Source: an uncultured Lachnospiraceae bacterium (GTDB taxonomy: Bacteria; Bacillota; Clostridia; Lachnospirales; Lachnospiraceae). Taken from it: 64,000 nucleotides of DNA. The first letter of the stretch is position 1; every line of letters begins with the position of its first letter. The notes beneath the pieces were generated by a model, which saw only the letters and a program-made list of their open reading frames with translations, did not search any database and had not been told where the DNA came from. Positions 23,664 through 53,612 of the stretch are shown here, in pieces. Position numbers and translations under genes: made by a program. The stretch covers positions 24,515 to 88,514 of the forward strand of contig CACZFF010000040.1 in assembly GCA_902780385.1 (NCBI GenBank), written 5' to 3'.

Positions 23664-23772
23664 CAAAGTCCCCCGCAAAGATCCGCTGATACATCCCCGA
23701 TGTGATCCGGGCTGCTGTTGCTTCGATCAGGACGCACCGATCCCGGCGTGATCCGGCTGAAAGTCCCGGCCA

Positions 23773-25131: not shown

Positions 25132-25871
25132 GGCTGACCTTCCTCCGTTTTGTCAGAAACCTGCGGTCCGGTAATCAAATTATACCGATCCAGCATACTG
25201 ATTACTTCCTCTCTGGAGTTGAACATGATCAGATCCAGAATGGAAAGATTGGGAATAAATGGATTTTCAAACTGTTTATAGACAATCTCATCCGCGCGCA
25301 AAAACTTCAATGTGATCCCCTGCTGCCTGAACTTTGCAAAATCGTATATGCCCATACCGCCGATGGGATTGATATAGGTGTCCGCCCCCAGCCTGCGGCA
25401 CATATCATAAATGCGCTCCTCACGCCTGTATGCCCTGTTGCCGTCAAGGTCCGAGGTCCTTGCGATCGGCGTGCTGATCTGCAGATAGCGGCAGACCGTC
25501 CTGATGGAATGAAGGAGATATTCCGAGAGCACCGTCTCATCGCAGTCCCGGATCTCTTCCATCAGCCGGATCCCTTCTGTGTAAAAAGGCGCCTTGTGAT
25601 ATGCGTCATACAGAATATCCCGCTTCTTTTTCCAATTGACACAATTGACAGGTGCCAGGTGCAGTTCGGTGCATAATCTGGAACATGACGCCTTCTCGAT
25701 CTCAATGCCGAACCAGACAGGTTTCCCTTTCTGAAGGATCCTGTTGCGGCTGATCCAGCTCCTGGTTTTGTACTGATAGTCATCCCCGATCAGAAAAATA
25801 TCTGCCGAGCGGATCAGCTGCCAGTAGCCGATGTAAGGGAGAAAATAAGGCTGGTTTGCTGCCAGAATCAT
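25128..25871 (-). CDS. WbqC-like family protein
   Basis: A 247-residue protein that opens with the family hallmark MILAANQPYFLPYIGYWQLI and continues with DDYQYKTRSWISRNRI and a later NPIGGMGIYD. WbqC-like proteins sit beside DegT aminotransferases in polysaccharide and O-antigen loci and are thought to modify amino sugars, but I know of no firm biochemical assignment. I start it at 25871, preceded by GAGGAG with 7-nt spacing; the frame runs upstream through the 3' end of the aminotransferase gene, giving only low-complexity sequence. The start is 11 nt past that gene's stop, and the stop overlaps the radical SAM start. Confidence 0.85.
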   Translation of the reverse strand: MILAANQPYFLPYIGYWQLIRSADIFLIGDDYQYKTRSWISRNRILQKGKPVWFGIEIEKASCSRLCTELHLAPVNCVNWKKKRDILYDAYHKAPFYTEGIRLMEEIRDCDETVLSEYLLHSIRTVCRYLQISTPIARTSDLDGNRAYRREERIYDMCRRLGADTYINPIGGMGIYDFAKFRQQGITLKFLRADEIVYKQFENPFIPNLSILDLIMFNSREEVISMLDRYNLITGPQVSDKTEEGQP

Positions 25872-25882
25872 GGTAGGTCTCC

Positions 25883-27061
25883 TCATTGTTTTTTCAGCAG
25901 GATATGGCAGATGCGGTCGATTTCCTCCACTGTCAGCTCCGGGTACAGAGGAAGGGTGAGTACCTGCTCCGCCGCCTGCCGGGCGGCCGGAGTATCCTGC
26001 CGTCCGGTTTCTGGTCTGTCTGCCGGAGCCGCTTCTGCCTGATCCTGACCGCGGTAACATGCGGGAGCCGCTTTCGCCCGGCCCAGGCCGCGGTAACATG
26101 CGAAATCGCTCGTAAGAGGATAGAAATATTTCCTGGCAAAAATCCCGTTTGCGGCAAGAAGCTCCGCGGCCTCATCCCGGGTATACTGGTCTGTCTCAAA
26201 CAGGACCGGAAAGTAGGAATAGTTGGACTGCACACCATTCTGCGGATCGAGAAGCCGGAGTCCCTGCGCGCCGCTAAGCCGCTCCCGATAGCGTTCCGCA
26301 GCCTTCTTCCGCTCTAAAATACAGCGGTTAATATGACGCAGATTGCAGATTCCCATGGCCGCCTGGAATTCGCTCATCTTGGCGTTTCCGCCCACGGCAG
26401 CTACCGTCTCCTCATCGCGGATCCCGTAGTTTTTGAGATCCTCCAGCTTCTGCACCAGCGCTTCCTCTCTGCAGCATGCGGCACCGCCCTCAATTGTGTG
26501 AAAGACCTTGGTCGCATGAAAGCTGAAAACGGAAATATCCCCGAAGCAGGCGGCAGATCGTCCATTCAGGCGGACACCGAAGGCATGCGCCGCATCGTAG
26601 ATCAATTTCAGTCCGTGCCTTTTCGCGATTTCGCCGATTTCCCTTACGGCACACATGTTTCCATATACATGTACCGGGAGTATGGCGACAGTTTTTTCAC
26701 TGATCAGTCCCTCGATCAGTGTCGGATCCATGGTCAGGTCCTCCCTGCGGATATCGCAGAAGACCGGCACCAGATTGTTGCGCACGATCGCATGTGTCGT
26801 GGATGCAAAAGTAAAGGGAGTCGTGATCACCTCGCTTCCCGCAGGGAAGCCGAATGCCCGGATCGATTCCTCCAGGGCAAGATGTCCGTTCGTGAACAGA
26901 GTCACATGGGGCACATTCAGGTACGACTCCAGCCGCTTCTGAAATCGATCATGTTTGGCTCCCATGTTGGTGAGCCAGCGGCTCTCCCATAAATCCTTTA
27001 TCTCCGCACAGTATTCTTCAAAAGACGGCATAGAGGACCTGGTGACATTGATCTGATTCAT
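25883..27061 (-). CDS. DegT/DnrJ/EryC1-family sugar aminotransferase
   Basis: A 392-residue PLP enzyme that turns a nucleotide-linked keto sugar into an amino sugar. The PLP lysine lies in SFHATKVFHTIEGGA, and the loop IYDAAHAFG carries the cofactor-pairing aspartate. VioA/FdtB/QdtB-type enzymes making 3- or 4-amino-6-deoxy sugars are the nearest in feel. Near residue 320 there is an in-frame tandem duplication of 39 bp (26025-26102) that adds an Ala/Arg-rich loop repeating ACYRG, absent from normal members. Start at 27061 has GGGGAG 6 nt upstream. It lies 16 nt after the flippase stop. Confidence 0.92.
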   Translation of the reverse strand: MNQINVTRSSMPSFEEYCAEIKDLWESRWLTNMGAKHDRFQKRLESYLNVPHVTLFTNGHLALEESIRAFGFPAGSEVITTPFTFASTTHAIVRNNLVPVFCDIRREDLTMDPTLIEGLISEKTVAILPVHVYGNMCAVREIGEIAKRHGLKLIYDAAHAFGVRLNGRSAACFGDISVFSFHATKVFHTIEGGAACCREEALVQKLEDLKNYGIRDEETVAAVGGNAKMSEFQAAMGICNLRHINRCILERKKAAERYRERLSGAQGLRLLDPQNGVQSNYSYFPVLFETDQYTRDEAAELLAANGIFARKYFYPLTSDFACYRGLGRAKAAPACYRGQDQAEAAPADRPETGRQDTPAARQAAEQVLTLPLYPELTVEEIDRICHILLKKQ

Positions 27062-27077
27062 TTTTCACTCCCCTTAA

Positions 27078-28535
27078 TCATTGCTCCCTGCTGCGGAAGG
27101 CTTTTACAGCCGAAATCAGGTAACGGAAGGCCTCCAGTCTTAAGACCGCGGATCCGGCCAAATAGACTGCTGCCCCCAGCAGAATCTGCAGCGCCAGAGT
27201 GGCTGTATCTCCCAGGCCCAGCCCGGGAAGCGGCCGGATGCAGAAACCCATGAAGAGCGCCAGGGCAATGCCCGGCAGAATGTCCATCAGCTGATCCTCG
27301 TAACCATATCTGAGCAGCTTTCTGTTGGGCATACTGTTGATGATCTGGCCGACAATACTCAGGGCCAGGACGCTCCATGCCATCGCCATCACGCTGATCC
27401 GGACAGTGATCAGGATCACCAAAACACTGATCGTTTTTTTAGCAATCTCCAGTTTCAGAAAGAGATCGCTCCGGCCCATTGCTTTGATGGCATTCAGGTT
27501 CGCCGTATGGACAGGATAAAACATAAAAGCGATGCAGTAAATGGCCAGAAAGGGAACACAGGGAAGCCATTTTTCCGTCAGGACCAGACGCACAAGGGTC
27601 TCCGAGCAGACAGCGAGGCCGATCATCAGAGGTGCCATGATATAGGTGCTTGTCTGGATCGCCCTGCGGGTCATGTTCCTGACCCGTCCGCGGTCATCCT
27701 GCTCCCTGGACATTGCAGGAAAAAGCACGCTGTCAATCGAGGTATTGATATTGGTCACGATCAGGGACGGAAGCTGCTGTCCTCTGTTGTAATAAGCCAG
27801 ATCCGCCGACGTGTACATTTTCCCTATGAGAAGCGAACGGAGACTGTTATAGCCCGTATCCAGAAGAGAGGATGCCAGCAGCTTCCAGCCGTAGGAAAAC
27901 AATTTCCGCAGCCTTTGCACGGAAAAAATGCGCTCCGGGCGCCACGGCACTGTCAGCCACAGGATCAGGGTATCGACTGCCGTATTGATCAGGTGCTGGG
28001 CGACAAGCGACCACACTCCGAATCCCCTGTAAGCCATACAGATCCCGATGATTCCGGAGCCGATGGTCCCGCCCAGGGTGGCAAAGAAAAATTTCCGGAA
28101 GAGGAGGTGCCTGGAGACATAGGCCTGCTGGACATTTTTGACACCGGATATGATCAGGATCAGGCTGAGCACCCGCACAATCGATGTCAGCTCCGGCATC
28201 CCGTAAAAGACCGAGATCAGAGGCGCCGCTGCGAACATGACCGCATAGAGGATCAGGCATGCCGCTATATTAAAATAAAAAACAGACGAAAAATCCAGAC
28301 TGTCCGCATTCTTTTTCTGGATCAGGGCATTTCCCATTCCGCTGTCCACAAAGACCTGCAGAATCGCAGTGAACACCGTAACCAGCGCGACAGTCCCGTA
28401 TACAGACGGCTCCAGGATACGCGCCAGAAGAACCGATATCACAAAAGCCGTTCCCTGCGCACAGATCCGCTCCCCGAACCTCCACAGAAAACCGGCTGCC
28501 GCTTCCCGCCGGCTGTTTTTTCTCTTACTTATCAT
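27078..28535 (-). CDS. Polysaccharide biosynthesis flippase (Wzx/MOP superfamily)
   Basis: A 485-residue, 12-14-helix membrane protein of the oligosaccharide flippase group. Typical features are an N-terminal WRFGERICAQGTAFVISVLL helix and the motif LIGKMYTSADLAYYNRGQQL in the middle, found in Wzx/TuaB-like proteins. It would move a lipid-linked saccharide across the membrane. The ATG at 28535 lies inside the last codons of the GT2 gene (11-bp overlap) after AAAAGGA, so the two are coupled. Its presence makes the operon an envelope or exopolysaccharide pathway rather than an intracellular one. Confidence 0.88.
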   Translation of the reverse strand: MISKRKNSRREAAAGFLWRFGERICAQGTAFVISVLLARILEPSVYGTVALVTVFTAILQVFVDSGMGNALIQKKNADSLDFSSVFYFNIAACLILYAVMFAAAPLISVFYGMPELTSIVRVLSLILIISGVKNVQQAYVSRHLLFRKFFFATLGGTIGSGIIGICMAYRGFGVWSLVAQHLINTAVDTLILWLTVPWRPERIFSVQRLRKLFSYGWKLLASSLLDTGYNSLRSLLIGKMYTSADLAYYNRGQQLPSLIVTNINTSIDSVLFPAMSREQDDRGRVRNMTRRAIQTSTYIMAPLMIGLAVCSETLVRLVLTEKWLPCVPFLAIYCIAFMFYPVHTANLNAIKAMGRSDLFLKLEIAKKTISVLVILITVRISVMAMAWSVLALSIVGQIINSMPNRKLLRYGYEDQLMDILPGIALALFMGFCIRPLPGLGLGDTATLALQILLGAAVYLAGSAVLRLEAFRYLISAVKAFRSREQ

Positions 28536-29532
28536 AAGGTTCCTTTTTACGAAATGAATCGTTCGGCTTTTTGCTCCCGTGCCGGCCGGAATGTCCGGAC
28601 ATGGCCGCCTTGATCAATGTCTTGATCTTCCTGTCCGTCTTCATAGTATTGAAAATCTCTCTGTACACGGGATTGTTGATGAGTTCCCGGAGAGAGGCAT
28701 TTTCCAGCATTCCCGCACCTGTTGTCGCCATAAAGGGGAGAAGCCCTCTGTGCCAGGTATAGTCCGTGTACTGATCCAGATCCAATAGCATGCCGCAGTT
28801 GCGTTTTGCATCGATCTCCTTCTGTCTGCGGTCCTGTTTTTTCCAGCCGCTCATCATAGAACCCGATCCGCCTTCTCTGTAAACACAAGTCTCTTCATTG
28901 ATGAAATGCGCATACCCCTGCGAAGTCACAAACAGGCGCAGGCGCAGATCATCGGTCGGGCAGTGGCGTATCCCTGCCTTCATCAGGGCATCGTAGCATT
29001 CGGTCCTGAAAAAAAAGGAAGCCGTGGGAATAAATGTCAGCCGATGAAAATCCCTCAGGTCATAATCCTGCCTGCGGGGATCAAACTGCCCGGCGTCTTT
29101 CTTTGAATAGGGAATAAAGGTCCTGCGGGTCCGGGCTTCTTCGTTGCGGATCACCGCGTTTGTGAAGCAGAAGGTGCAGTCCGGATGTGCTTCCATATAA
29201 TCATACTGCTTCTGCAGTTTGCAGGGGTCTGTCCAGTAATCATCCCCCTCGCAGATCGCCATGTACCTTCCGGTGACTCGCGGGCGGATATGGGTCTCCA
29301 CGATGCTGATGCCCTTGGACCACTGGTTTTCTGTCTGGCAGACCGGTTTAATTATTGCCGGAAATTTCAAAGCATATTCCCGGATGATGGCCGCTGTCGC
29401 GTCCGTGGAGGCGTCGTCGTGTACAATGACCTCAAAGTCAAAATCCGTCTTCTGCCGGACCATTCCCTCCAGCGCCCTGCGTATATATTTCTCATGATTA
29501 TATGCCAGACAATAAACGCTTACTGCAGCCAT
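28525..29532 (-). CDS. Family 2 glycosyltransferase
   Basis: A 335-residue cytoplasmic GT-A enzyme. Recognisable parts: SVYCLAYNHEKYIRRALEGM at the N-terminus, the nucleotide-binding VIVHDDASTDAT, the metal-binding region MAICEGDDYWTDPCKLQKQ, and the acceptor-side TDDLRLRLF. No membrane helix is present. The sequence is close to the clostridial glycosyltransferase group using CEGDDYW in place of a plain DxD. It is the first gene of the six- or seven-gene operon. ATG at 29532 follows GAGGAGTAAC. An extended -10 (TGTTATAAT, 29608-29600) lies 68 bp upstream. Confidence 0.92.
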   Translation of the reverse strand: MAAVSVYCLAYNHEKYIRRALEGMVRQKTDFDFEVIVHDDASTDATAAIIREYALKFPAIIKPVCQTENQWSKGISIVETHIRPRVTGRYMAICEGDDYWTDPCKLQKQYDYMEAHPDCTFCFTNAVIRNEEARTRRTFIPYSKKDAGQFDPRRQDYDLRDFHRLTFIPTASFFFRTECYDALMKAGIRHCPTDDLRLRLFVTSQGYAHFINEETCVYREGGSGSMMSGWKKQDRRQKEIDAKRNCGMLLDLDQYTDYTWHRGLLPFMATTGAGMLENASLRELINNPVYREIFNTMKTDRKIKTLIKAAMSGHSGRHGSKKPNDSFRKKEPYDK

Positions 29533-34532: not shown

Positions 34533-35729
34533 TTATTTTTTCAGTACACCATTCCCGGTGAAGGTATACGTCCTGTTCCCGATCTTCTGACGTCCGGTCA
34601 GCATATGACCATCCTTGACACTGAAATAATACTTTTTATTGCCGATGGTCTGCCAGGCGGTCAGCATATGGCCGTCCCTGACACTGAAATAGTATTTTTT
34701 CCTTCCGATCGTCTGGAAAGCGGTCAGCATATGACCGTCTTTGGTACTGAAATAGTACCGTTTCTTTCCGATTGTCTGGAAGCCGGTCAGCATATGCCCG
34801 TCCTTGACGCTGAAATAGTATTTTTTATTATTGATGACCTGCCAGCCGGTCCGCTTGTAGCCATAGCTGTCGTAATTGTATATTTTTCCGGAGGATCTGT
34901 GCCATCCGGTGATATATTTTCCGGTCCTTTTCAGGCCAAGATATTGCGCAATTCCCGCGGCATCCGCCTGTCCGAGACGTTTGAGGAATGCCTCGCTCCT
35001 GAGCTTTTCCGCATCGCCCTTATTGGACATGAAGGCGTGCTCCACGATGACGGCGGGGATTTTGTAAGTCTTGTTGTAAAAAAGAACACCGTAGTAATCA
35101 CCCTTTTTGCCGCTTGGATCACGGCGGCTTTTGTTATCGCTGTGCCTGGTGCGGGGGCCGCCGTTGGTCAGGCCGCATCCGGCAATGCGCCCGCAGAGAA
35201 TCTGCGCAAGTTTTCGGGACTGTGCGCCGACAGAGGCGTAGAAACTGTTATTTTGATAATAAACCCGCACACCGTGGGTCGCCTTGCTCTCGCCTGTTCC
35301 ATAGGCATTATTGTGCAGGCAGACAAAAAGATCGGCATTGTTTTTCCTGGCAATAAGGCTGCGGTCCTTTAGATCGGCGGACTCACCGGCGCTGCTGACT
35401 GCCCTGTCAGAAGTACGTGTCATGATGACCTTGACATTTGCGTATTTTTGCAGTTCCTCTTTACAGTACCTGGCGATTTTCAGGTTGAGTGTTTTTTCCT
35501 GCATGCCATAATAACAGGCGCCCTTTTCCCGGCCGCCGTGCCCCGGGTCCAGAACCACGACCCTGGTCTTTGATGCTGCCCCGGCTTTCACTGTGCCTGC
35601 AGCCCGGCCCAGTGCCGGGTTTACTCCCGCCGCGGAAATCATGATCGCAAGAACCAGCAGCAGAGACAGAAACCTCCTTGTAAATCTCCTTGTTAAGCTC
35701 CTTGTATACTCCCTTTTATTATTCGACAT
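34533..35729 (-). CDS. Secreted N-acetylmuramoyl-L-alanine amidase with cell-wall-binding repeats
   Basis: A 398-residue exported enzyme. A signal peptide (twin Arg-Arg, then LSLLLVLAIMISAAG) covers residues 1-45. The Amidase_3 catalytic domain at about 53-240 carries the zinc ligands in VVLDPGHGG and LHNNAYG, and the glutamate in PAVIVEHAFMSN. Residues 260-398 are six choline-binding-like repeats of about 22 residues, of the form WQTIGNKKYYFSVKDGHMLT, coded by imperfect 66-bp DNA repeats (about 34580-34860). It would cut the stem peptide from muramic acid during growth or separation. Start at 35729 follows AAGGGGAATG. Confidence 0.93.
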   Translation of the reverse strand: MSNNKREYTRSLTRRFTRRFLSLLLVLAIMISAAGVNPALGRAAGTVKAGAASKTRVVVLDPGHGGREKGACYYGMQEKTLNLKIARYCKEELQKYANVKVIMTRTSDRAVSSAGESADLKDRSLIARKNNADLFVCLHNNAYGTGESKATHGVRVYYQNNSFYASVGAQSRKLAQILCGRIAGCGLTNGGPRTRHSDNKSRRDPSGKKGDYYGVLFYNKTYKIPAVIVEHAFMSNKGDAEKLRSEAFLKRLGQADAAGIAQYLGLKRTGKYITGWHRSSGKIYNYDSYGYKRTGWQVINNKKYYFSVKDGHMLTGFQTIGKKRYYFSTKDGHMLTAFQTIGRKKYYFSVRDGHMLTAWQTIGNKKYYFSVKDGHMLTGRQKIGNRTYTFTGNGVLKK

Positions 35730-43834: not shown

Positions 43835-44353
43835 TTATTTCTTTGCTCCCGCGCGCAGGGTGCGGATGATCCTGGCGACCACTGCTTCAATCTCGCCGCT
43901 GCCCTCACGCACGATCAGATCCGCATATTTTTCATACAGGACCGTCCTCTCATCATAGAGGTCCTGCAGAGTCTGCCCCTGGCGGAGTACTACGCCCCGC
44001 TGGCGGATATTGTGCAGGCGTTTCTGTATCACACTATAATCCACCTGGAGGTAAATGACGGCGCCGATCTCGCGCAGATGCTTCATTGCCTCTTCTCCGT
44101 AGACAGCGCTGCCGCCCGTCGCAATGACGCACTGCGACGCCTCGATCGAAGCATTGACCTCGTTCTCGACTTCGAGAAATCCGTCGATCCCTTTCTTTTT
44201 GATGATATCTGCCAGGCGCATCCCTTCTTTTTTCTGGATGAGCAGATCCGAATCAATAAAATCGTATCCGATGACCTTTGCCAGGATCACACCGACGGTG
44301 CTTTTGCCAGATGCGGGCATCCCGATCAGGATCAGATTATCCTTTTTTGCCAA
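43835..44353 (-). CDS. Shikimate kinase-like P-loop kinase, divergent
   Basis: A 172-residue kinase of the AroK/AroL fold. The P-loop GMPASGKSTVG, the DSD motif (FIDSDLLIQ) and the lid and C-terminal ERTVLYEKYAD are as in shikimate kinase. Two shikimate-binding features differ: the usual FR-x-x-E is FLEVE here, so the arginine is missing, and the GGG loop reads ATGGSAV. It may therefore phosphorylate another small alcohol. The best start is TTG at 44353, 8 nt after GAGGAG; the upstream in-frame ATG at 44524 would add 57 residues unlike any kinase. It sits 86 nt before the CheB-CheR-kinase gene on the same strand. Confidence 0.75.
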   Translation of the reverse strand: MAKKDNLILIGMPASGKSTVGVILAKVIGYDFIDSDLLIQKKEGMRLADIIKKKGIDGFLEVENEVNASIEASQCVIATGGSAVYGEEAMKHLREIGAVIYLQVDYSVIQKRLHNIRQRGVVLRQGQTLQDLYDERTVLYEKYADLIVREGSGEIEAVVARIIRTLRAGAKK

Positions 44354-44509
44354 AGTAGATCTCCTCTCCTTCCGACCGCTTTTGCAACAGTGTATACATG
44401 AAATCAGTATACCACATCTAAGGAATTGATACCTAAATAACTTCTGAAATTCTATGTGTCTTTTCTTCTGATCATTGTTTCTGTACACGTCCCCTGTAAA
44501 CAGAAATGT

Positions 44510-44537
44510 TTCATTCATGCGCAACTCGTGTTATACT
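44510..44537 (+). promoter_or_regulatory. Possible promoter of the amino-sugar operon
   Basis: TTCATT (44510-44515) and TATACT (44532-44537) are 16 bp apart. Transcription from here would run through the whole family D element before reaching the first gene at 44828. Confidence 0.35.
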
Positions 44538-44722
44538 GTAAAAGTCCGATCAAGCGGCTGTACGTCTGTGCGTGCGAGCACGCACAGACGTACAGACATT
44601 TGATCGGACCCCCATGTATGAGACAAAAAGCTGCGCGCAGCAAGGCAAGCGGAGCGATTGTCGAATACATGGAGGCGATTGCGGGAGTGCGGCCTAAGCC
44701 GCACGGAGCAATCGACTTTTAC
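44538..44722. repeat. Family D MITE-like element, copy 2
   Basis: 185 bp with terminal GTAAAAGTC / GACTTTTAC and internal hairpins (TGTACGTCTGTGCGTGC with its complement). It matches 18878-19078 in inverted orientation. It fills most of the 474-bp gap between the divergent kinase and aminotransferase genes. Confidence 0.8.
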
Positions 44723-44827
44723 TCTTTTGGCGGGGGCAGTCACACTGCAGATTTTTACCAAAAGTGCATATATTTTCATTGATACTCATTTCTTCGGGAT
44801 ACCGCTTTGGCGGCATGAGGTACAGAT

Positions 44828-45961
44828 ATGATTTCTTTCAACGTCCCTCCCTTTATCGGGACTGAACTTGATTATGTGAAACAGGCCATCGACGCGCACA
44901 AAATCTGCGGCGACGGTCAGTTCACCAAAAAATGCCACGCTTATCTGGAAGAGCGCTTCGGCGCACAGAAGGTCCTGCTGACGACCAGCGGAACCACCGC
45001 CCTCGAGATGGCGACCATTCTCTGCGGTCTCAAGAAGGGCGATGAGGTCATCGTTCCCAGCTTCACCTTCTCCAGCACCGCCACCGCCATCGTCCTCACC
45101 GGCGCCACGCCTGTCTTCGTGGATATCCGCCCGGATACCATGAACATAGACGAGACAAAGATCGAGGCGGCGATCACAGACAAGACCCGCGCGATCATGG
45201 CTGTGCACTATGCCGGTGTCGCCTGCGAGATGGACACCATCATGGAGATCGCTGCGCGGCACAATCTGAAGGTGATCGAAGACGCGGCACAGGGTGTCAT
45301 GTCATATTACAAGGGCCGTGCCCTGGGCACCATCGGCGATTTCGGCTGCTTCTCCTTCCATGAGACCAAGAACTATTCCATGGGCGAGGGAGGAGCGCTG
45401 CTCATCCGCCACCCCGAAGATAACGACTCCGCAGAAATCCTGCGGGAAAAGGGCACAAACAGGGCCCGCTTTTTCCGAGGCCAGGTAGACAAGTACACAT
45501 GGGTAGACTACGGCAGCAGCTATCTTCCCAGCGATATGAACGCCGCCTACCTCTGGGCCCAGCTCCAGGAGGCAGACCTCATCAACGATAACCGTCTCGC
45601 CATCTGGAATACCTACGCGGAAGCCTTTGCGCCGCTCGCTGCATCCGGCCGCGTGGAAGTCCCGACCATACCTGCCGGCTGCGTCCACAACGCGCACATG
45701 TACTATCTCAAGCTCCGTGACCTGCAGGACCGCACCGACTTCATTCAATATCTGAAGGACAAGGGCATCGTCGCCGTCTTCCATTACATCCCGCTGCACA
45801 GCGCCCCCGCAGGCCTGAAATTCGGACGTTTCCACGGCGAGGACCGCTATACCACAAGCGAGAGCGACCGCCTGGTCCGCCTGCCTCTCTACTACGGACT
45901 GACGCAGGAAGACCAGCAGTATGTCATCAATACTGCCCTGGATTATCTGCACAAAAATTAA
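44828..45961 (+). CDS. dTDP-4-amino-4,6-dideoxygalactose transaminase-like enzyme (WecE/RffA family)
   Basis: A 377-residue PLP-dependent DegT-type aminotransferase. It follows WecE/RffA closely: FNVPPFIGTELDYVKQAI at the start, GDGQFTKKCHAYLEE, TTSGTTALEMA at the phosphate site, IEDAAQGVMSYYKGRALG, and the PLP lysine in FHETKNYSMGEGG. WecE converts dTDP-4-keto-6-deoxyglucose to dTDP-4-amino-4,6-dideoxygalactose (Fuc4N). In enterobacteria that sugar goes into a surface glycan; here the neighbours (ArnC-like GT, SMR pair, GtrC-like enzyme) offer a route from the nucleotide sugar to the outside. No dTDP-glucose synthesis genes are in the window, so the precursor must be made elsewhere. ATG has GAGG 7 nt upstream. 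Confidence 0.92.
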   Translation: MISFNVPPFIGTELDYVKQAIDAHKICGDGQFTKKCHAYLEERFGAQKVLLTTSGTTALEMATILCGLKKGDEVIVPSFTFSSTATAIVLTGATPVFVDIRPDTMNIDETKIEAAITDKTRAIMAVHYAGVACEMDTIMEIAARHNLKVIEDAAQGVMSYYKGRALGTIGDFGCFSFHETKNYSMGEGGALLIRHPEDNDSAEILREKGTNRARFFRGQVDKYTWVDYGSSYLPSDMNAAYLWAQLQEADLINDNRLAIWNTYAEAFAPLAASGRVEVPTIPAGCVHNAHMYYLKLRDLQDRTDFIQYLKDKGIVAVFHYIPLHSAPAGLKFGRFHGEDRYTTSESDRLVRLPLYYGLTQEDQQYVINTALDYLHKN

Positions 45962-46200
45962 ACCCGGAAGAGCGGCCGCAGGCCGCCTTTTCCTTATAGG
46001 CCGCCGGTTACAAGTCACACCTTCACCAGCCGCCGGATGTTTTCACCCGTTCTTTGCGTGAAAATCCGGGTTGAACGGCGAATATCCCTCCCCCAAGGGG
46101 ATTTGGAAGGGGCCTTCGCAGCGCTGCCCGGTCACAGCCCGGTCAGGTCGTGATCAGTGACGTCCACTGCTTCATACATTATTTTACCGAGAGGACTACT
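45962..46200. other. Intergenic region with hairpins between aminotransferase and GT genes
   Basis: GCGGCC/GGCCGC followed by a short T-run lies just after the aminotransferase stop, and CGGATGTTTTCAC pairs with GTGAAAATCCG at 46030-46065. Either could partly attenuate the operon. No gene seen. Confidence 0.4.
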
Positions 46201-47160
46201 ATGCCTTCAGCTGAGAAAAAAAATCTCATAAGCTTTATCATTCCCTGTTATGCCAGTGAGGGTTCCGTAGGTCTCGTCATCGACGAGATCCGCCAGGTCG
46301 TGGCACAGAAACCCGACTTCGATTATCAGATCGTCGCTGTCAATGACTGTTCTCCCGACAAGGTGCTGGACGTTCTGACCGGCATCGCGGCCCTTGACCC
46401 CAAAGTCGGCGTCATCGACCTTGCCAAAAACGGCGGCCGCCACAACGCCCTTATATGCGGGTGTCACTACGCGGCCGGGGACTATGTCGTCTTTATTGAC
46501 GATGACCAGCAGTGCCCCGCGGACCGTCTCTGGGACCTTCTCGATCCCCTTGTAAACGGCAATTACGATGTCGCGATTGCCCGCTACCGCAAAAAGACCC
46601 AGTCCCGCTTCAAGAACTTCGGCTCCGCTGTCAACGACCGCGTCGCCACATGGCTTCTGGGCAAAGACCCCAGCCTGAAATTCTCCAACTTCTCCGTGAT
46701 GAAAAAGTTCGTCAAGGACGAAGTGATCAAATACACCAATCCCTATCCCTATCTCTCCGGTCTCATGCTCCGCGCCACACGCCGCGTCATCAATGTAGAC
46801 ATGGAGGAGCGCGTGCGCACCATCGGCGTCGGCCACTACAGCTTTAAAAAGTCCTTCGCCCTCTGGATGAACAGCTTCACGGCATTCTCCGTCAAGCCCC
46901 TGCGCCTGGCCACCGGCATCGGTGTACTCTGGGCTGTTCTCGGCGTCCTCATGGGTCTGCGTACCGTGATCCGCAAACTCCTGAACCCCAGCATACCGCT
47001 TGGATACAGTTCCACAATGGCCGTCCTGCTCTTCTCCACCGGCATGATCATGTTCATGCTGGGCCTGATCGGAGAATACATAGGACGCATTTACATATCA
47101 CTGAACAATTCGCCCCAGTTTGTCATACGGGATAAAATCAATCTCTCCGATTCCGATTAA
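46201..47160 (+). CDS. ArnC/GtrB-like polyprenyl-phosphate glycosyltransferase
   Basis: A 319-residue family 2 glycosyltransferase with two C-terminal membrane helices (about 235-258 and 270-295). The catalytic half shows FIIPCYASEGSVG, VNDCSPDKV, the metal-binding VVFIDDDQQCPAD, and the FSNFSVMKKFV and GVGHYSFKKSF segments of ArnC/GtrB/CsbB proteins. These enzymes move a sugar from its nucleotide to undecaprenyl phosphate on the inner face of the membrane. The likely donor here is the 4-amino sugar from the preceding gene. ATG at 46201 has AGAGG 7 nt upstream. Confidence 0.93.
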   Translation: MPSAEKKNLISFIIPCYASEGSVGLVIDEIRQVVAQKPDFDYQIVAVNDCSPDKVLDVLTGIAALDPKVGVIDLAKNGGRHNALICGCHYAAGDYVVFIDDDQQCPADRLWDLLDPLVNGNYDVAIARYRKKTQSRFKNFGSAVNDRVATWLLGKDPSLKFSNFSVMKKFVKDEVIKYTNPYPYLSGLMLRATRRVINVDMEERVRTIGVGHYSFKKSFALWMNSFTAFSVKPLRLATGIGVLWAVLGVLMGLRTVIRKLLNPSIPLGYSSTMAVLLFSTGMIMFMLGLIGEYIGRIYISLNNSPQFVIRDKINLSDSD

Positions 47161-47298
47161 GGGGATCCGGAAGATTGAGCAGTTTTATTCTTCACCGTGC
47201 GGGACTCGCGGACGAGTCCTGAACCGCACATGCGGCTGTGAACTCCTGTCCATAACCATGATCATGGCCGCAAGTGTATATAAGGAGTGAATCCAGAC

Positions 47299-48594
47299 AT
47301 GCCAGACTCTGTTTTACATCGAACATCCACTGATCAGACCCGTCCCCGGAAAAAAATCCTCATCATCGGGGCGGGAGATTTCCAGCTCCCTCTGGTCCAG
47401 CAGGCTGCGAAGACCTGCCAGGTCCTTCTCGCCGCGCCGGTGATCTCTGCGGCTTTCGATCCCTATATCTCCGATCGCCTGATCGTTGACGTCCGGGATG
47501 AATCCGCGATCCTCGCCTTTGCCCAGGAGCACAAAATCGACGGCGTCATCACTGACCAGACCGATATCGCTGTCCGGAGTGTCGCCTATGTCGCGGAAAA
47601 AATGGGACTTCCGGGAATCGGCTACGAGACCGGCCTTCTCTTTACCGACAAGAGCCGCATGCGTAAGCGCCTGGCCGAACTGGGACTCCCCCTGCTCGCC
47701 AACCGGACAGTCTCCTCTGTAGAGGACGCCATTGCTTTTTACAGGGAACTGGGCGGAGCGAAAAGCTCTGCCTCCGTCCGGGTGATCATAAAGCCGCTGG
47801 ACACCCAGGGAAGCCGCGGTGTACAGGTCTGTGCCAGCGAGCAGGAAATCAGGGACAAATATGACGAGGCCGCACGCTGGTCCGGCAGCCACGAGGTGAT
47901 CGTCGAGCATTTTGCGACCGGCCGTGAATTTGTAGTCGAATCCCTGGTCCTCGACCACCAGTACCGCACTCTCTGCATCGGCGACACGCTTTATTTCGAT
48001 ATTCCGGATGCCTTTGCCGCCAAGAGCCGTATCTTCCCCACAACGGCGGACAATGCCCTTCGTCAGAAAGTCCTTGACCTGGATGAAAAGATCATCACAG
48101 GCTTCGGCCTGACCCAGGGTATCACCCACAGTGAATACATAATGGAAGGAGACGAGGTTTATCTCATTGAGACCGCAGCCCGCGGGGGCGGAGTCTTTAT
48201 CTCCTCAGACCTGATCAGCCTTTCCAGCGGCCTTCACACCGAACAGTTTCTGATCGATATTGCACTCGGGCAGCAGAAGGAAATGCCTCGTATCCTGCCG
48301 CAGCAGTGTTTCTGCGGCTATATGGCCTTTTACCTTCCCGTGGGACGAGTCATCCGCGCCGACGGCATCGAGGATGTCCTGGCATTTCCTTTCGTCCACC
48401 GTACCCAGCTCGGAAAGCTGCACGTCGGCATCGAAAACCATGAGGGAGCGACCGACAAGACTTCCCGTCTCGCCCTCATCGTCTCCGGAGACACCCGCGA
48501 AGAACTCATGCAGCACATGGCACAGGTCCGTTCCACTCTGCAGATCGAGGTCGAGGCACCGGACGGCTCCATCCGCCAACCCATCTGGGAATAA
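47299..48594 (+). CDS. ATP-grasp ligase in the amino-sugar operon
   Basis: A 431-residue cytoplasmic enzyme with the pre-ATP-grasp Rossmann part (KKILIIGAGDFQLPLVQQA), central domain, and ATP-binding residues VRVIIKPLDTQGSRGVQVC and YLIETAARGGGVFISSDLI. It resembles the carbamoyl-phosphate-synthase/PurK-type group that activates a carboxylate with ATP and links it to an amine. Lying between an ArnC-like GT and a pair of SMR proteins, it may join an amino acid or other acid to the 4-amino group of the sugar. That is inference from context. ATG at 47299 follows AAGGAGTGA. Confidence 0.85.
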   Translation: MPDSVLHRTSTDQTRPRKKILIIGAGDFQLPLVQQAAKTCQVLLAAPVISAAFDPYISDRLIVDVRDESAILAFAQEHKIDGVITDQTDIAVRSVAYVAEKMGLPGIGYETGLLFTDKSRMRKRLAELGLPLLANRTVSSVEDAIAFYRELGGAKSSASVRVIIKPLDTQGSRGVQVCASEQEIRDKYDEAARWSGSHEVIVEHFATGREFVVESLVLDHQYRTLCIGDTLYFDIPDAFAAKSRIFPTTADNALRQKVLDLDEKIITGFGLTQGITHSEYIMEGDEVYLIETAARGGGVFISSDLISLSSGLHTEQFLIDIALGQQKEMPRILPQQCFCGYMAFYLPVGRVIRADGIEDVLAFPFVHRTQLGKLHVGIENHEGATDKTSRLALIVSGDTREELMQHMAQVRSTLQIEVEAPDGSIRQPIWE

Positions 48595-48669
48595 ACTGCT
48601 GTAGGCACTCTGTCGAGAGTGTGTACAACAGCTTTCGAAAATCCAGCTTCTCCGCAGGAGGTATTTGCA

Positions 48670-49068
48670 TTGCTCAATCATTTTCTTGACAGACGGCGCA
48701 ATGTTTTTCTGCTCGCCGCTTTTGCTGTTTTCATGGAAAGCCTGACTTCTCCCTGCCTCAAGATCGGTTCACAGAATTATGAGACTTTTTCTCCCGGATA
48801 CTTTTTCTGGTTCGGCCTGGCTGTCATCATTTTAGGTATCTACGCCGTCTGCTGGCAGCTGATCCTGGAACGTATTCCGCTGACTACCGCCTATCTGCGG
48901 CGCGGCTTCAGCTACATCCTGCTGTTTGTATGGTCCACCCTGATCTTTCACGAGAACATCACCATCAAGCAGATCATAGGAATCGCCGTCATCTCATTGG
49001 GAATGGTCGTCAGCGTCTCCGATGAACACGGCAAAAAAAATACATCTCAAAATAATGCATCCCAATAG
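48670..49068 (+). CDS. SMR/EamA-like small membrane protein, probable flippase subunit 1
   Basis: A 132-residue, four-helix protein of the small multidrug resistance fold, in the ArnE/ArnF style. Helices are at about 12-30, 40-65, 72-92 and 97-115, and the protein ends in a polar tail. The first helix has ESLTSPCLKIGS where ArnE/F-like proteins have a conserved Q-LLK region. I start it at TTG 48670, which has CAGGAGG with 8-nt spacing; the in-frame start at 48619 has no such site. It overlaps no gene but is 75 nt from the ATP-grasp stop. Pairs of this kind move undecaprenyl-phosphate-sugars outward. Confidence 0.75.
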   Translation: MLNHFLDRRRNVFLLAAFAVFMESLTSPCLKIGSQNYETFSPGYFFWFGLAVIILGIYAVCWQLILERIPLTTAYLRRGFSYILLFVWSTLIFHENITIKQIIGIAVISLGMVVSVSDEHGKKNTSQNNASQ

Positions 49069-49192
49069 ACAAAAAAAACCGACTGCCCCCCTCGGCTGAA
49101 TCTCCTTCGACCGAATCCCCTTCGATTGAACCCCTTCGATTGACAAGGGATCCCGCACTTTCAGCGGGCTGTCCCGGCGAGGTATCATACAG

Positions 49193-49549
49193 ATGTCCAA
49201 TCTTCTCACTCCCCAGGTCTGCTACGCAGCTGCCATTTTCGGCGCTTTCATCACTGCGCTGAGTCAGATCCTTCTCAAGACCCAGGCCAATACAACCGGC
49301 GGAAAAGGCTTTTTCAGCAAATTTCTCAATATCCGGGTCATCGTTTCATACGGACTGCTGTTTCTGACGCTGGCAATCAACCAGATTGCCCTCCGCTTTG
49401 TACCGCTCTCCGTCATGCCCTGCATCACAGCCACCAGCTTTATCTGGGTCTTCGTCATGGGCGCCCTGATCCTGAAGGAGAAAGTCTCTCCCAGAAAAGT
49501 GCTCGGTGTCATGATCATCATCGCCGGTGTCATCATCTCCCGGCTCTGA
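49193..49549 (+). CDS. SMR/EamA-like small membrane protein, probable flippase subunit 2
   Basis: A 118-residue, four-helix SMR protein. FGAFITALSQILLKTQANTT in helix 1 is the ArnE/ArnF-type motif, and the last helix reads VLGVMIIIAGVII. It differs enough from the partner at 48670 to suggest an obligate heterodimer. The gap between the two (49069-49192) contains three CCTTCGAYYGAA-type tandem repeats. The ATG lies after GGCGAGGTATCATACAG. Confidence 0.85.
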   Translation: MSNLLTPQVCYAAAIFGAFITALSQILLKTQANTTGGKGFFSKFLNIRVIVSYGLLFLTLAINQIALRFVPLSVMPCITATSFIWVFVMGALILKEKVSPRKVLGVMIIIAGVIISRL

Positions 49550-49682
49550 TTCCAAAAGTCCGTTAATACGGAGCCATGTCACAGAGCCGTGTCACAGAGC
49601 CGTGACATAGCCCTGACACAGAGCCGCGCCCGCCGGAATACACCGCTGAAAGTCCCATACATATCACACGAGGAAATATGAC

Positions 49683-51329
49683 ATGTACTCTCTTTTAAAA
49701 GAATTCTCCGAAAAGATCACGAGCAGGAAATCCTACTGGATCCCCCTGCTTTTTTACACGTTCGGAGCTTATGGTTTTTCCATGCTCAACCGCACAGTCG
49801 GCGCAGATGACCTTGCCACCCCTCTGTATGTGGACAGTACGATCTGGCTGGCCGAGCTCCGCTGGGGAGCCGTTCTGTGGAAAAAGATCTTCTCTTTCGG
49901 TGCCTGCGTGCCCTTCCTGGACAAATATCTCTCCATCTGCTTCCTGATGCTGGCGGGAACGGCTTTTGCCTGTATACTCTACCAGATCAACGGAAAGAGA
50001 GACCGGGTCTGGCTCTATACGATCGCAGCGTGCTCTTTTATTACATTTCCGATCATCTGTGAGATCTGGGAATTTACCTGCGGCGGAACGATCATTGTAC
50101 CCGGCGACTACTTCTGCTGCTTCATGCTCATACTGTGGCTTCTGACCTGCCGCACGGATTCCTTCCCCGCACAGACCCGGGTACTCTTTACCGCAGGGAT
50201 CCTGCTCGCACCGATCATCTCAAGCGCGGAGTCCATCGCCCCGGTCTACATCGCAGCCGTGCTGATCATCCTGTTTTACCGCCATTGCGTGCGCAGAGTC
50301 GAACCGGACCGCAAAAGCGCCTGGTTTTTCGAGGGAATCCGCTTCGCGATCCCGCTCTTTATCGCTTTTATCCTGCGTCTCATAATCGGCTACGGAATCA
50401 TGGCTGTCCTGCACCTCAGGCACAGGCACACAGGCGCGACGACCATCGCCTGGCCTTTATCCGGCCAGGAGATCGCAGCTCTCTTTAAAGGCGTGCTGAT
50501 CGATTACGGAGTTGCAGCCCTGATCAATCTCCCCATCACGATCTTTATCGTCTGCACAGTGCTCTTCGCCATACGCTGTTTTATCCTGGCCTTTAAAAAC
50601 AAGACTGCTCTCCCTGTATTTCTGGGAATCTGCATCGGGATCTCCCTCTTCCTGATCACGATCATTCAGGGCTCTGTGATGTATTACCGCACAGCCATCA
50701 CCTTGATGGTGTTCTGCGCCTTTGTATTCTACCTGCATGCGGAAAACTTTTACGACCTGATCAACAGCGGAATCCTGAAAAACAAGCGCATTTACGTCCT
50801 CGCAGGCCGCTGCGGACTGGTCCTTCTCCTCTTCATCACCTGGAGGCAGGCCGCCCATCTTCACCGCTATCTGGCCCTCAACAACCAGCGCTACGACAAC
50901 GAAGCGGCCGTCATGCAGGAGCTCTGCTTCAAACTGACCGATGAGTACGACACCTCCAAGCCGATGATCTTTGTCGGCAATTTCTCCAACGGAAGCGCCT
51001 CCTACGCCGCCACCCATGATATGGCAGAAACCCGGAACGGACGTCTCTTCCGCAGGATCCGCAGCAGGATCGACGGCACAGAGGATTGGAAAGCACCAAT
51101 GCTTGTACAGACCACGGTCAACTCTGCCATTGACTGGTACCACTGGGAATTTGACGGACAGCTTATGGGCGAATTCCTCGCCTACTACGGTTACGATTTC
51201 GATGTCAGGGCGCTCTCCCGTACCGAGCTGGAGCCCTACAACGAGGAAGCCAGAGAACTCGGTATGACGACCTATGATATTGCTGACCGCGGTGATTATC
51301 TCCTCATCTGCCTGGGCAGGCTGAACTGA
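49683..51329 (+). CDS. GtrC-like GT-C glycosyltransferase (Glucos_trans_II type membrane protein)
   Basis: A 548-residue integral membrane protein with about 10-11 helices. The first large loop has the acidic pair that marks GT-C enzymes, NRTVGADDLA (residue 37 onward), and SAESIAPVYI, AFILRLIIGYG and YRTAITLMVF place it with the 'glucosyltransferase domain' proteins related to phage GtrC. The soluble C-terminal domain (about 420-548) would face outside. Such enzymes take the sugar from undecaprenyl phosphate and add it to a surface polymer. The last gene of the operon, it ends at a bidirectional terminator. ATG at 49683, with GAGG 10 nt upstream. Confidence 0.85.
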   Translation: MYSLLKEFSEKITSRKSYWIPLLFYTFGAYGFSMLNRTVGADDLATPLYVDSTIWLAELRWGAVLWKKIFSFGACVPFLDKYLSICFLMLAGTAFACILYQINGKRDRVWLYTIAACSFITFPIICEIWEFTCGGTIIVPGDYFCCFMLILWLLTCRTDSFPAQTRVLFTAGILLAPIISSAESIAPVYIAAVLIILFYRHCVRRVEPDRKSAWFFEGIRFAIPLFIAFILRLIIGYGIMAVLHLRHRHTGATTIAWPLSGQEIAALFKGVLIDYGVAALINLPITIFIVCTVLFAIRCFILAFKNKTALPVFLGICIGISLFLITIIQGSVMYYRTAITLMVFCAFVFYLHAENFYDLINSGILKNKRIYVLAGRCGLVLLLFITWRQAAHLHRYLALNNQRYDNEAAVMQELCFKLTDEYDTSKPMIFVGNFSNGSASYAATHDMAETRNGRLFRRIRSRIDGTEDWKAPMLVQTTVNSAIDWYHWEFDGQLMGEFLAYYGYDFDVRALSRTELEPYNEEARELGMTTYDIADRGDYLLICLGRLN

Positions 51330-51374
51330 TCACGCAGATGACTGATCACGCATGTACATTTAAGTCACAGTCAA

Positions 51375-51410
51375 AAAACCCCCGCAGCTTGCTGCCGCGG
51401 GGGTTTTAGA
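51375..51410 (+). terminator. Strong bidirectional terminator
   Basis: ACCCCCGCAG and CTGCCGCGGGGGT form the stem, with A-run and T-run on both sides. It ends the amino-sugar operon and the convergent L,D-transpeptidase transcript. Confidence 0.85.
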
Positions 51411-51489
51411 CTGTCTGTTTTCGATTGTCTGTTTACGATCGCTTATGTCTGCGTCCGGGGACGCTTCATGAAATCACTTTTCACACGAA

Positions 51490-52527
51490 TCAGTAAACAA
51501 TAACACGCGTATTCTTCGGTGTTGTCTGATGAATCAGCTTGGCATCTGCCAGTTTCAGGCGGATGCAGCTGTTTGATCTGTTCTTTCCGAGAGTCGCGTC
51601 CTTAGGAGAAGAGGTGTAGGGATTTCTGCAGCCAAGTCTGTACAGAACCGAGTGGAAATAGTTTCCTGCACTGATTCGGGTTGTGTAGAAGACTGTGGAA
51701 CCTGTGAAATCCTTGTAACCATAGGCATAACTGCTCTTATGGTTGAGAGTAAATCTTCCGGAAGGAGTCGGTGTGGAGCTCTTGCCGATCGTGCAGGGCA
51801 TTCCTCTGCGGAAAATCGCCCAGCTTCCTTTGGATCCCTTATAGACATTAACCTCGTGATGACTCTTATTAACAAGAATCAGATAACGGGTGCTGCTACT
51901 GTAGCCCTGGGCCTTCTTGTCCATGCCGTGAACATCCGTGACTGCGCCGTTCGCACCGATCTTATAACCATCAATGGTAGTGTTGGTCGCGATTGTGCCG
52001 TCTGCCTTGACATAGTACATTGCGTTGTTGACAAAGAACCAGCCCTTGGTGCGGCGCTGTTTGCCTGTGCTCGCGTCAAAGTAGTAAAGCTTCTTGTTCA
52101 GTGTGAAGAAACCCTTCTGAACTGCGCCATTCCTGGAGGGAACAAGATAGTAGTAATCGTTGCCGATCTTTCTGTATCCGGTCAGGATCCGGCCGACGCC
52201 GATTCCTTTCGCTCCCTCTTTCACGCTGGCATAATACTTGTTGCCGCCGATGGTGAACCAGCCGCAGCAGAGATTTCCTTTCGCGCTGAATCCAAAATAC
52301 ATATTACCGATCTTATGTATTGAGCTCTTATAATATTTGCCGCTCGCATAATAATATCTGTAATACTTTCCCACTTTTACCCAGCCGGTGGAGGTCGCCT
52401 GTGTAGATACAGTGGAGGTTGCTGCCGCTGCGTCCGCATCTGCCTGTACCGTGACTGCCATAGCAGGCATGCAGGTAAGAATCAGAATCATGAAGACAGT
52501 GAACAGCATTGTGATTCTTTTCTTCAT
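51490..52527 (-). CDS. L,D-transpeptidase (YkuD) with cell-wall-binding repeats, paralogue 1
   Basis: A 345-residue exported protein: signal peptide at 1-25, about six choline-binding-like repeats (for example GNDYYYLVPSRNG, GKYYRYYYASGKYY) at 45-200, and a C-terminal YkuD domain from about 210. Where the family has SHGC-x-R, this protein has SNSCIRL, so the catalytic cysteine and the arginine remain but the histidine-glycine pair is changed; an upstream YFHSVLY keeps the other histidine. YkuD enzymes make 3-3 peptidoglycan crosslinks or anchor proteins. It lies 44 nt after its tandem paralogue, and 60-65 per cent of residues appear shared. Confidence 0.87.
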   Translation of the reverse strand: MKKRITMLFTVFMILILTCMPAMAVTVQADADAAAATSTVSTQATSTGWVKVGKYYRYYYASGKYYKSSIHKIGNMYFGFSAKGNLCCGWFTIGGNKYYASVKEGAKGIGVGRILTGYRKIGNDYYYLVPSRNGAVQKGFFTLNKKLYYFDASTGKQRRTKGWFFVNNAMYYVKADGTIATNTTIDGYKIGANGAVTDVHGMDKKAQGYSSSTRYLILVNKSHHEVNVYKGSKGSWAIFRRGMPCTIGKSSTPTPSGRFTLNHKSSYAYGYKDFTGSTVFYTTRISAGNYFHSVLYRLGCRNPYTSSPKDATLGKNRSNSCIRLKLADAKLIHQTTPKNTRVIVY

Positions 52528-52571
52528 ATAGAACTAAATCCCTTCTTTAATAGACAAATCAAAACGGGAGA

Positions 52572-53612
52572 TCAATATACAACGACACGTGTGCCGCGTC
52601 TCATATTGTCCCAGATGAACTTCGCATCTGCCAGAGGAAGGCGGATGCAGCTGTTAGACCTGTTCTTGCCAAGTGTAGCATCCTTGGGAGAAGTTGTGTA
52701 AGGGTTTGTGCTGCCGAGCTTGTAAAGAACAGAGTGGAAGAAATTGCCTGCATTGATTCTGGTTGTGTAGAACACAGTGGAGCCCACGAAATCCATACGT
52801 CCGTAAGGTCCGAACCTTGTGACATTCTTGGAAACCTTGAATGTACCGGATTTGGTCGGTGTGGAACTCTTGCCGGTTGTGCAGGGAATGTTTCTCCTGA
52901 TATTGACCCAGCTGCCCTTGGATCCCTTGTACATGTTGACGAGGTGTCTGCTCTTGTCTACGAGGACCATGTAACGGGTCTCACTGCTGTAGCCCTGAGC
53001 CTTCTTGTCATAGCCGTAAGGATCTGCGACTGCGCCGTTTGCGCCGATCTTACGTCCATCGATAGTGGTATTGGTGGCAATCGTTCCGTCTGCCAGCACA
53101 TAGTACATGGAAGAGCCGATGTAGAACCAGCCCTTTGTGCGGCGCTGCTTGCCGGTGGTCGGGTTGAAATAATACAGCTTCTTGCCGATCGTGATAAAGC
53201 CGGTGGCGCGGGCGCCGTTCTTGGCAGGATTGAGGTAATAATAATCGTTGCCGATCTTTCTGTAACCGGTCAGGATCTGACCGACGCCGATGCCCTTTGC
53301 ACCCTGTTTGACACTGCCGTAATATGTGACATTGTTGATGGTGAACCAGCCGCAGCAAAGGTTGCCCTTCTTGCTGAAGCCAAACAGCTTGTTTTCAATC
53401 TTTTTGACACAGTTGGTGTAATATTTGCCTTTTGCGTAGTAATATCTGTAGTACTTATCTACTTTGACCCATCCGGTGGATGCGGCCTGTGTTGTTACTG
53501 TGCCCGTAGTAGCTGCTGCCGTATCCGCACCTGCCGGTACAGTAACTGCCATAACCGGCATACATGACAAAAGCATGATTACGACAAACAGCATCGCGAG
53601 TTTTTTCTTCAT
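52572..53612 (-). CDS. L,D-transpeptidase (YkuD) with cell-wall-binding repeats, paralogue 2
   Basis: A 346-residue near-copy of the gene at 51490-52527, with the same layout: signal peptide (MLFVVIMLLSCMPVMAV), repeats such as NNVTYYGSVKQGAKGIGV, and a YkuD domain ending TRVVVY. The active-site motif again reads SNSCIRL rather than SHGC-x-R, so the change is fixed in both copies. Tandem duplication is evident. ATG at 53612 follows AAGGAGGC, a strong site. It is probably the promoter-proximal gene of the pair; the 200 bp upstream are AT-rich, with no clear consensus promoter. Confidence 0.87.
   Translation of the reverse strand: MKKKLAMLFVVIMLLSCMPVMAVTVPAGADTAAATTGTVTTQAASTGWVKVDKYYRYYYAKGKYYTNCVKKIENKLFGFSKKGNLCCGWFTINNVTYYGSVKQGAKGIGVGQILTGYRKIGNDYYYLNPAKNGARATGFITIGKKLYYFNPTTGKQRRTKGWFYIGSSMYYVLADGTIATNTTIDGRKIGANGAVADPYGYDKKAQGYSSETRYMVLVDKSRHLVNMYKGSKGSWVNIRRNIPCTTGKSSTPTKSGTFKVSKNVTRFGPYGRMDFVGSTVFYTTRINAGNFFHSVLYKLGSTNPYTTSPKDATLGKNRSNSCIRLPLADAKFIWDNMRRGTRVVVY

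Follow-up and report, generated by a model that had tools for sequence, protein, structure and literature searches.

We analysed a 64,000-nucleotide stretch of DNA from an uncultured Lachnospiraceae bacterium (GenBank assembly GCA_902780385.1, contig CACZFF010000040.1, positions 24,515 to 88,514 of the forward strand; hereafter the window), in which six consecutive open reading frames (ORFs) on the plus strand, here lettered A to F, may together modify and export an amino sugar. The sugar in question is Fuc4N, 4-amino-4,6-dideoxy-galactose, which is predicted to be made as its thymidine diphosphate (dTDP) derivative. Coordinates and scans against Pfam and NCBIfam agreed with the six families that an initial annotation had read from the letters of the sequence. 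The features of the locus are as follows.

44828-45961, plus strand: A, WecE-type aminotransferase (NCBIfam equivalogs and nearest solved chain)
45972-45986, plus strand: terminator-like hairpin 3' of wecE, of uncertain role (consensus scan only)
46150-47160, plus strand: B, GtrB/ArnC-like polyprenyl-phosphate glycosyltransferase (GT) (PF00535, GtrB and ArnC structures, two C-terminal hydrophobic segments)
47287-48594, plus strand: C, ATP-grasp carboxylate-amine ligase, proposed to be an acyl- or aminoacyl-Fuc4N ligase (PF13535, profile and fold)
48619-49068, plus strand: D, half of a proposed flippase pair of the small multidrug resistance (SMR) type (EamA and ArnE matches below cut-off)
49193-49549, plus strand: E, the other SMR-type member of that proposed pair (EamA and ArnE matches below cut-off, EmrE profile)
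49683-51329, plus strand: F, GtrII-family GT-C protein, proposed to make the last transfer, outside the membrane (PF14264)

Protein A exceeded the curated cut-offs of both WecE equivalogs in NCBIfam (PRK11706, 627.6 bits against 375; TIGR02379, 620.8 bits against 434.85), and its nearest solved chain was 4piw (7.8e-170), one name of which is dTDP-4-amino-4,6-dideoxygalactose transaminase. Its predicted reaction is the conversion of dTDP-4-keto-6-deoxyglucose to dTDP-Fuc4N. The substrate can be made, since the source genome encodes both RmlB (502.9 bits) and RmlA (472.2 bits) above their cut-offs. Protein B carries a Glycos_transf_2 domain (PF00535, 84.6 bits), and its nearest solved chains were GtrB sll0501 (3.7e-27, over residues 10-312 of 319) and ArnC (7.4e-23). 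By the PF00535 and sll0501 matches it belongs with the GtrB-type polyprenyl-phosphate GTs; the ArnC equivalog was not reached (110.6 bits against a cut-off of 529). Two hydrophobic segments lie at its C-terminus, and translation probably starts at the ATG at 46201, which is preceded by AGAGG, rather than at 46150.

The ATP-grasp protein C matched ATP-grasp_4 (PF13535, 32.3 bits against a cut-off of 27). We aligned 35 chosen C-type sequences, 20 of them drawn from the 41 C genes of the WecE loci described below, and used the alignment to predict a model of C (predicted local distance difference test score, pLDDT, 91; predicted template modelling score 0.89). Foldseek ranked 4dim first, an entry named phosphoribosylglycinamide synthetase, and placed L-amino-acid ligases at ranks 2-7 (BL00235, BacD/YwfE and RizA; E-values 2.7e-27 to 4.5e-25; 18-21% identity), ahead of the purine enzymes and carboxylases. 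A profile search likewise returned 4dim (1.6e-95), BL00235 (1.1e-51) and BacD (3e-39) at the top, with carbamoyl-phosphate synthase (1.2e-35), RizA (2e-28) and two PurT chains, one PurT-like from Pyrococcus (7e-18) and one from E. coli (1.7e-13), lower down. When C of the window was the lone query, 4dim (9e-19) was followed by BacD (2.7e-12). Residues K122, K169, E207 and R299 were invariant among the 35 sequences and E295 nearly so, and E283, E295 and R299 aligned with an E, E and R of BacD that we take to be its Mg- and carboxylate-binding residues. In its predicted fold and catalytic residue pattern C falls among the L-amino-acid ligases, and by profile and modelled fold these are its nearest characterised relatives.

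Relatives of C encoded beside wecE add to this picture. Six of them (L129, L133, L137, L150, L154 and L177) bear a C-terminal pyridoxal phosphate (PLP) enzyme domain that is nearest to CuyA/D-cysteate sulfo-lyase and D-cysteine desulfhydrase, at scores far below the equivalog cut-offs. Among 11 Pfam-scanned relatives, LAL_C2 was above its cut-off in four and just below it in two. Two ATP-grasps occur together in four WecE loci (L133, L137, L154 and L189) and in the close relative L041, and our guess is that such pairs could add two residues. A separate ORF beside wecE in another locus (L182:10036-11982, plus strand) combines a GT2 domain (70.5 bits) with a weakly matching ATP-grasp/LAL_C2 region.

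D and E matched only EamA/SMR-type and related transporter models. The EamA matches lay just below the cut-off of 28.2 (26.1 bits for D and 26.4 for E), and neither the ArnE equivalog (40.4 and 31.6 bits against 92) nor the ArnF equivalog (31.7 and 23.9 bits against 99) was reached, while a joint D/E profile matched EmrE (4e-05). At 23% identity they are two distinct proteins. Eleven of the 12 close relatives described below had both, with D ahead of E, and 31 of 32 SMR-bearing WecE loci held two SMR genes, the presence of distinct paralogues that a heterodimer calls for. Counts of hydropathy and charge gave no clear topology. By analogy with ArnE/ArnF, D and E probably form a heterodimeric flippase. 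No GtrA model matched at an E-value of 0.001 among the six genes, to which this search for a GtrA-family flippase was confined.

F had GtrII (PF14264, 53.1 bits against a cut-off of 30) as its sole Pfam match, which on sequence alone places it with the GT-C component of three-component Gtr systems; it matched no NCBIfam model, and hence no ArnT-type final transferase, at an E-value of 0.001. Residues D42 and D43 were invariant in nine aligned sequences, the window included. The predicted model of F was of low confidence (pLDDT 37.6), and a profile search of the PDB with F gave no match up to an E-value of 1.

A scan of a genome collection then returned 14 loci, of which 12 were close (65-87% identity in C) and two remote (23-25%) and set aside. 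The close relatives comprised eight Lachnospiraceae, two Eubacteriales, one Clostridiales and Sarcina sp. DSM 11001. Conservation of gene order, on which the initial annotation had made its proposal depend, was found in this set: ten of the 12 (L030-L039) had A-B-C-D-E in this order on a single strand. In eight of these ten F came after E, and in L033 the contig stops after E; F is the least constant part of the set. One further relative (L040) held C alone of the six. The gap between A and B was below 40 bp in L030, L032, L037 and L038, as measured from mechanically assigned ORF starts.

More distant relatives were sought in 299 genomes of the window's family, in which at least 20, the source genome included, held a homologue of C at a threshold of 1e-30 (up to five candidates scored per genome). 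Within 20 stretches around C matches other than the window's own, WecE above 350 bits lay near C in six (L046, L052, L053, L057, L059 and L060) and an SMR pair in four (L052, L055, L057 and L063). The genes were arranged differently there, for instance as A-S-S-C-x-B or A-x-B-x-C-S-S, where S is an SMR gene. WecE was present in 15 of the 20 genomes with a C homologue and in 81 of the 279 others (Fisher test, 5.8e-5, relatedness ignored).

So that loci were not selected through the ligase, we also searched from WecE outwards. WecE was above its cut-off in 95 of the 299 family genomes and in 23 of 291 genomes of a class-wide sample. We took 96 non-own WecE neighbourhoods of up to 9 kb on each side (one match, in G165, being below the curated cut-off), 73 of which had both flanks 8 kb or longer. 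A C-like ATP-grasp (≥40 bits) was present in 37 of the 96, a B-like GT in 56 at more than 150 bits (67 by coverage above 0.7 alone), two SMR genes in 31 and a single one in one further locus. Twenty-five of the 41 C genes lay within 250 bp of an A, B or SMR gene on the same strand.

Two controls were set beside these counts. In 20 arbitrary 19-kb stretches from WecE-carrying genomes, hand-picked from long contigs rather than drawn at random, there were no C, B or SMR matches at the survey thresholds (two partial GT2 matches of about 19 bits in one stretch were left uncounted). LegC is another 4-amino-sugar aminotransferase; in stretches of about 12.5 kb around eight of 22 over-cut-off LegC loci, C, SMR and B above 150 bits were each found in none, and the looser B rule gave one locus with a B-like match (108.6 bits). 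At the LegC-like distance of 5.5 kb, 31 of the 96 WecE loci held C, 31 held SMR genes and 50 held B. The linkage therefore exceeds the general background, while the LegC comparison is too small to settle the matter for C and SMR. Chance clustering as an explanation is ruled out by the order kept in 10 of 12 relatives together with the empty arbitrary stretches. The other condition that the initial annotation had set, that the aminotransferase and ATP-grasp genes might belong to separate pathways, was not borne out: distant genomes link the same families in reshuffled form, and the ATP-grasps beside WecE stem from several branches of the superfamily.

When 73 C-type proteins, including those of the window and of its close relatives, were placed on a tree, members from beside wecE intermingled with members from elsewhere. 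The label "no WecE in the stretch" required at least 10 changes, seven of them forced by starred branches, and the changes were fewer than in shuffles (0 of 500 as low). Some rows of the tree are long-branched and unsure in placement, and some genomes labelled as without WecE carry it elsewhere (e.g. G140 and G204). The mixed labels indicate that several ATP-grasp branches joined wecE or left it, the count telling nothing of direction. Of the evidence for a functional link, this tree is the part least dependent on shared ancestry.

Clustering of the genes neighbouring wecE also brought out a 182-residue GNAT protein in 25 loci; searched by its own model it was present in 28 of the 96 (one, L098, by a weak 56-bit match). 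The four scanned copies were nearest PseH, scoring 75-91 bits and so falling short of its cut-off of 93.1. PseH is the N-acetyltransferase of another 4-amino-4,6-dideoxy sugar. Across the 96 loci, 35 had C alone, 26 the GNAT alone, two both and 33 neither (Fisher test, 2.5e-5), and the 73 loci with long flanks gave 26, 19, two and 26 (p 0.0013). In both loci with the two genes, one of them lay more than 5 kb from wecE. Some orders resemble an exchange, with A-GNAT-B-S-S (L164) and A-S-S-GNAT-B (L115) against A-B-C-S-S (L184), but the WecE tree requires only four changes between the C and GNAT states (8 of 94 branches starred), so that the pattern cannot be separated from ancestry. The window's genus was represented in the sample by one further genome (G267), which was of the GNAT type (L151) and had no C at 1e-30. 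These patterns are suggestive of C and the GNAT excluding each other in WecE loci.

From the gene families, their linkage and the precursor genes, all of which are read in the sequence, we infer the ligation chemistry, the acid, the order of steps, the heterodimer and the acceptor as follows. WecE would turn the product of RmlA and RmlB into dTDP-Fuc4N; C would turn a free carboxylic acid, for which an amino acid is the best candidate, into an acyl phosphate and couple it to the 4-amino group, presumably while the sugar is still nucleotide-bound; B would pass the sugar to polyprenyl phosphate; D and E together, probably as a heterodimer, would flip the lipid-linked sugar outwards; and F would hand it to a wall or surface polymer. 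We consider it fairly likely that C acylates Fuc4N, and reasonably probable that the six genes constitute a multi-component transmembrane glycosylation pathway for N-acylated Fuc4N. An amino acid is mildly favoured as the acid, and the balance tips slightly towards the order of steps given here. The initial annotation's suggestion of an acid or amino acid on the 4-amino group agrees with the kinship of C with L-amino-acid ligases, with the PLP fusions and with the GNATs of many WecE loci that have no ligase.

The surroundings of wecE elsewhere bear on the acceptor. Of the 96 loci, 17 had YfhO-type GT-C genes within 9 kb of wecE, 13 had a GtrII cluster and 21 had LCP wall-ligase genes, each of these clusters being named from one member. 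Wall-bound polymers are therefore suggested as the acceptors in WecE loci outside the window. Two families of about 600 residues (L110:7192-8976 and L108:6042-7865), whose scanned members had no Pfam match, lay within 150 bp of wecE 24 and 20 times; they are perhaps unrecognised membrane glycosyltransferases.

Several observations weigh against the N-acylated Fuc4N pathway, and we gather them here. A terminator-like hairpin follows wecE, and gaps of 24-188 bp separate the ORFs of the window; because of these, co-transcription of the six genes can only be presumed. A consensus scan of both strands of 44300-51700 gave 10 terminator-like sites against 5.7 in shuffles, and a promoter scan of the locus gave three sites against 4.8, no excess. 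Among the close relatives, L036 has no F within 5.7 kb beyond E, and L041 keeps A to E but carries a second ATP-grasp between B and C and a PaaK-like gene between C and D, again without F. C lies below the equivalog cut-offs scored (BacD, 53.6 bits against 850), and in the Pfam scan C of the window had neither an LAL_C2 match nor a PLP fusion. In the survey, C, B above 150 bits and SMR genes occurred all together in only 16 of 96 WecE loci (19 by the looser B rule), 59 of the 96 had no C-like ATP-grasp in the stretch seen, and C-like ATP-grasps were found in glycan loci without WecE nearby. Compared with none in eight LegC loci, only B clearly differs (p 0.006), with a p of 0.10 for C and for SMR. 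Lastly, a tree-aware test of the exclusivity of C and the GNAT, resting on five supported independent pairs, gave no significance, and it is for this reason that we grade the exclusivity as suggestive.

We weighed three other explanations, and each was rejected as the leading one on the counterpoints given with it. C could make a small peptide or acylate another sugar of the polymer, Fuc4N being exported with its amine free. C-like enzymes in glycan loci away from WecE, and the loci with two ATP-grasps, would agree with such a role; we nevertheless regard it as unlikely, since several ATP-grasp branches are repeatedly linked to WecE, a GNAT occupies many WecE loci without C, and WecE is found somewhere in three quarters of the genomes with a C homologue at 1e-30 (15 of 20). 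It is somewhat harder to believe that Fuc4N is a backbone sugar of an intracellular repeat unit flipped by Wzx and that B, D, E and F serve another sugar: other GT2s, initiating transferases and LCP ligases are frequent in WecE neighbourhoods elsewhere, and the window has a Wzx-type gene of its own (27078-28535), but WecE stands right with B and the SMR genes, both in the window and among its close relatives, and a B-like GT above 150 bits accompanies it in 56 of 96 loci. In the Arn pathway a formyl group masks the 4-amino group during lipid loading (the roles of ArnA and ArnD). That C is a PurT-type ligase joining formate or another simple acid for such masking draws on its PurT matches (PRK09288, 2.4e-07; Foldseek ranks 9 and 17; the two PurT chains of the profile search) and on the Arn-like B and SMR parts, and is quite improbable given that L-amino-acid ligases come ahead by profile (1.1e-51 and 3e-39) and fold, that no deformylase is among the six genes and that the PLP-enzyme fusions of relatives indicate amino acids.

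The acylated Fuc4N pathway, if true, would extend the multi-component glycosylation systems by an acylation step and an SMR pair, and would provide a route for amino-acid-bearing sugars onto the cell surface, to be compared with D-alanylation and with 4-amino-4-deoxy-L-arabinose (Ara4N). It would also turn a little-charted surface chemistry into a testable gene set, with WecE in 95 of 299 genomes and seemingly interchangeable acyl-adding genes adjoining it. More tentatively, and with chances that we would put a little short of even, aminoacyl- or dipeptidyl-Fuc4N, brought to the outside on polyprenyl phosphate, may be a common decoration of the surface polymers of Lachnospiraceae. ATP-grasp ligases of differing acid specificity, some of them joined in one protein to an enzyme for making or converting the amino acid, would then be swapped between loci and give rise to variety in both antigens and charge.

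Other loci of the window and of the relatives are recorded here in their own right. A second glycan-type cluster (22434-29532, minus strand) encodes a GT2 and a Wzx-type flippase, together with a DegT aminotransferase that comes closest to DesI (251 bits, cut-off 650), a member of the WbqC family (203.5 bits), a radical SAM protein and one of 414 residues for which Pfam gave no match, and is perhaps another acylated amino-sugar locus. Downstream of F, two adjacent similar ORFs (51490-53612, minus strand) include a YkuD-type L,D-transpeptidase at 51490-52527, the one scanned; choline-binding-type repeats accompany these transpeptidase-type ORFs and an amidase (34533-35729, minus strand), and ORFs resembling the transpeptidase-type pair also follow the cluster beyond E in L036. 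The extra PaaK-like gene of L041 (11253-12581), the copy used for the search, is by sequence an adenylate-forming ligase (6.1e-12), and a member of its family at L054:15928-17214 likewise lies beside ATP-grasp genes.

We finally compared the locus with known systems. With the Fuc4NAc branch of enterobacterial common antigen it shares WecE and Fuc4N. In that branch WecD acylates the 4-amine of Fuc4N; here an ATP-grasp enzyme would replace the GNAT, and transfer via polyprenyl monophosphate is proposed. BacD/YwfE, BL00235 and RizA resemble C in fold and in the aligned E/E/R pattern, and differ in that the amine acceptor proposed for C is a sugar rather than an amino acid. Our search of the open-access literature found no report of an ATP-grasp enzyme with Fuc4N, nor one of such a glycosylation system in Lachnospiraceae. 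The pentofuranose three-component systems are like the locus in having a small flippase that resembles EmrE and ArnE and a GT-C protein, and unlike it in their ribofuranose donor, and the term ATP-grasp does not appear in that paper (PMC11127046). GtrA- and Wzx-type flippases are described for glycosylation systems of this general kind in a paper whose main text does not contain the words "SMR", "EamA" or "ligase" (PMC8035078).

Two further comparisons are those that the initial annotation had drawn, in which parts of the Gtr and Arn systems appeared to be combined. The Arn pathway, which modifies lipid A with Ara4N, likewise has a 4-amino sugar, an ArnC-like transferase and an ArnE/F-like SMR pair. 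Unlike it, the locus has WecE and would use dTDP-Fuc4N in place of UDP-Ara4N, has an added ATP-grasp ligase, has no ArnA or ArnD type among its six genes, and ends in a PF14264 protein without an ArnT-type match. GtrA-GtrB-GtrC and CsbB-GtcA-YfhO share with it a polyprenyl-phosphate GT, a flippase and a GT-C protein, F being of the GtrII family, and differ in that an SMR pair here stands for GtrA and an aminotransferase and an ATP-grasp ligase are added. Judged by its predicted proteins, the locus is distinct from the Arn pathway and would work like a three-component system, yet with genes of its own that fall outside the GtrA family.

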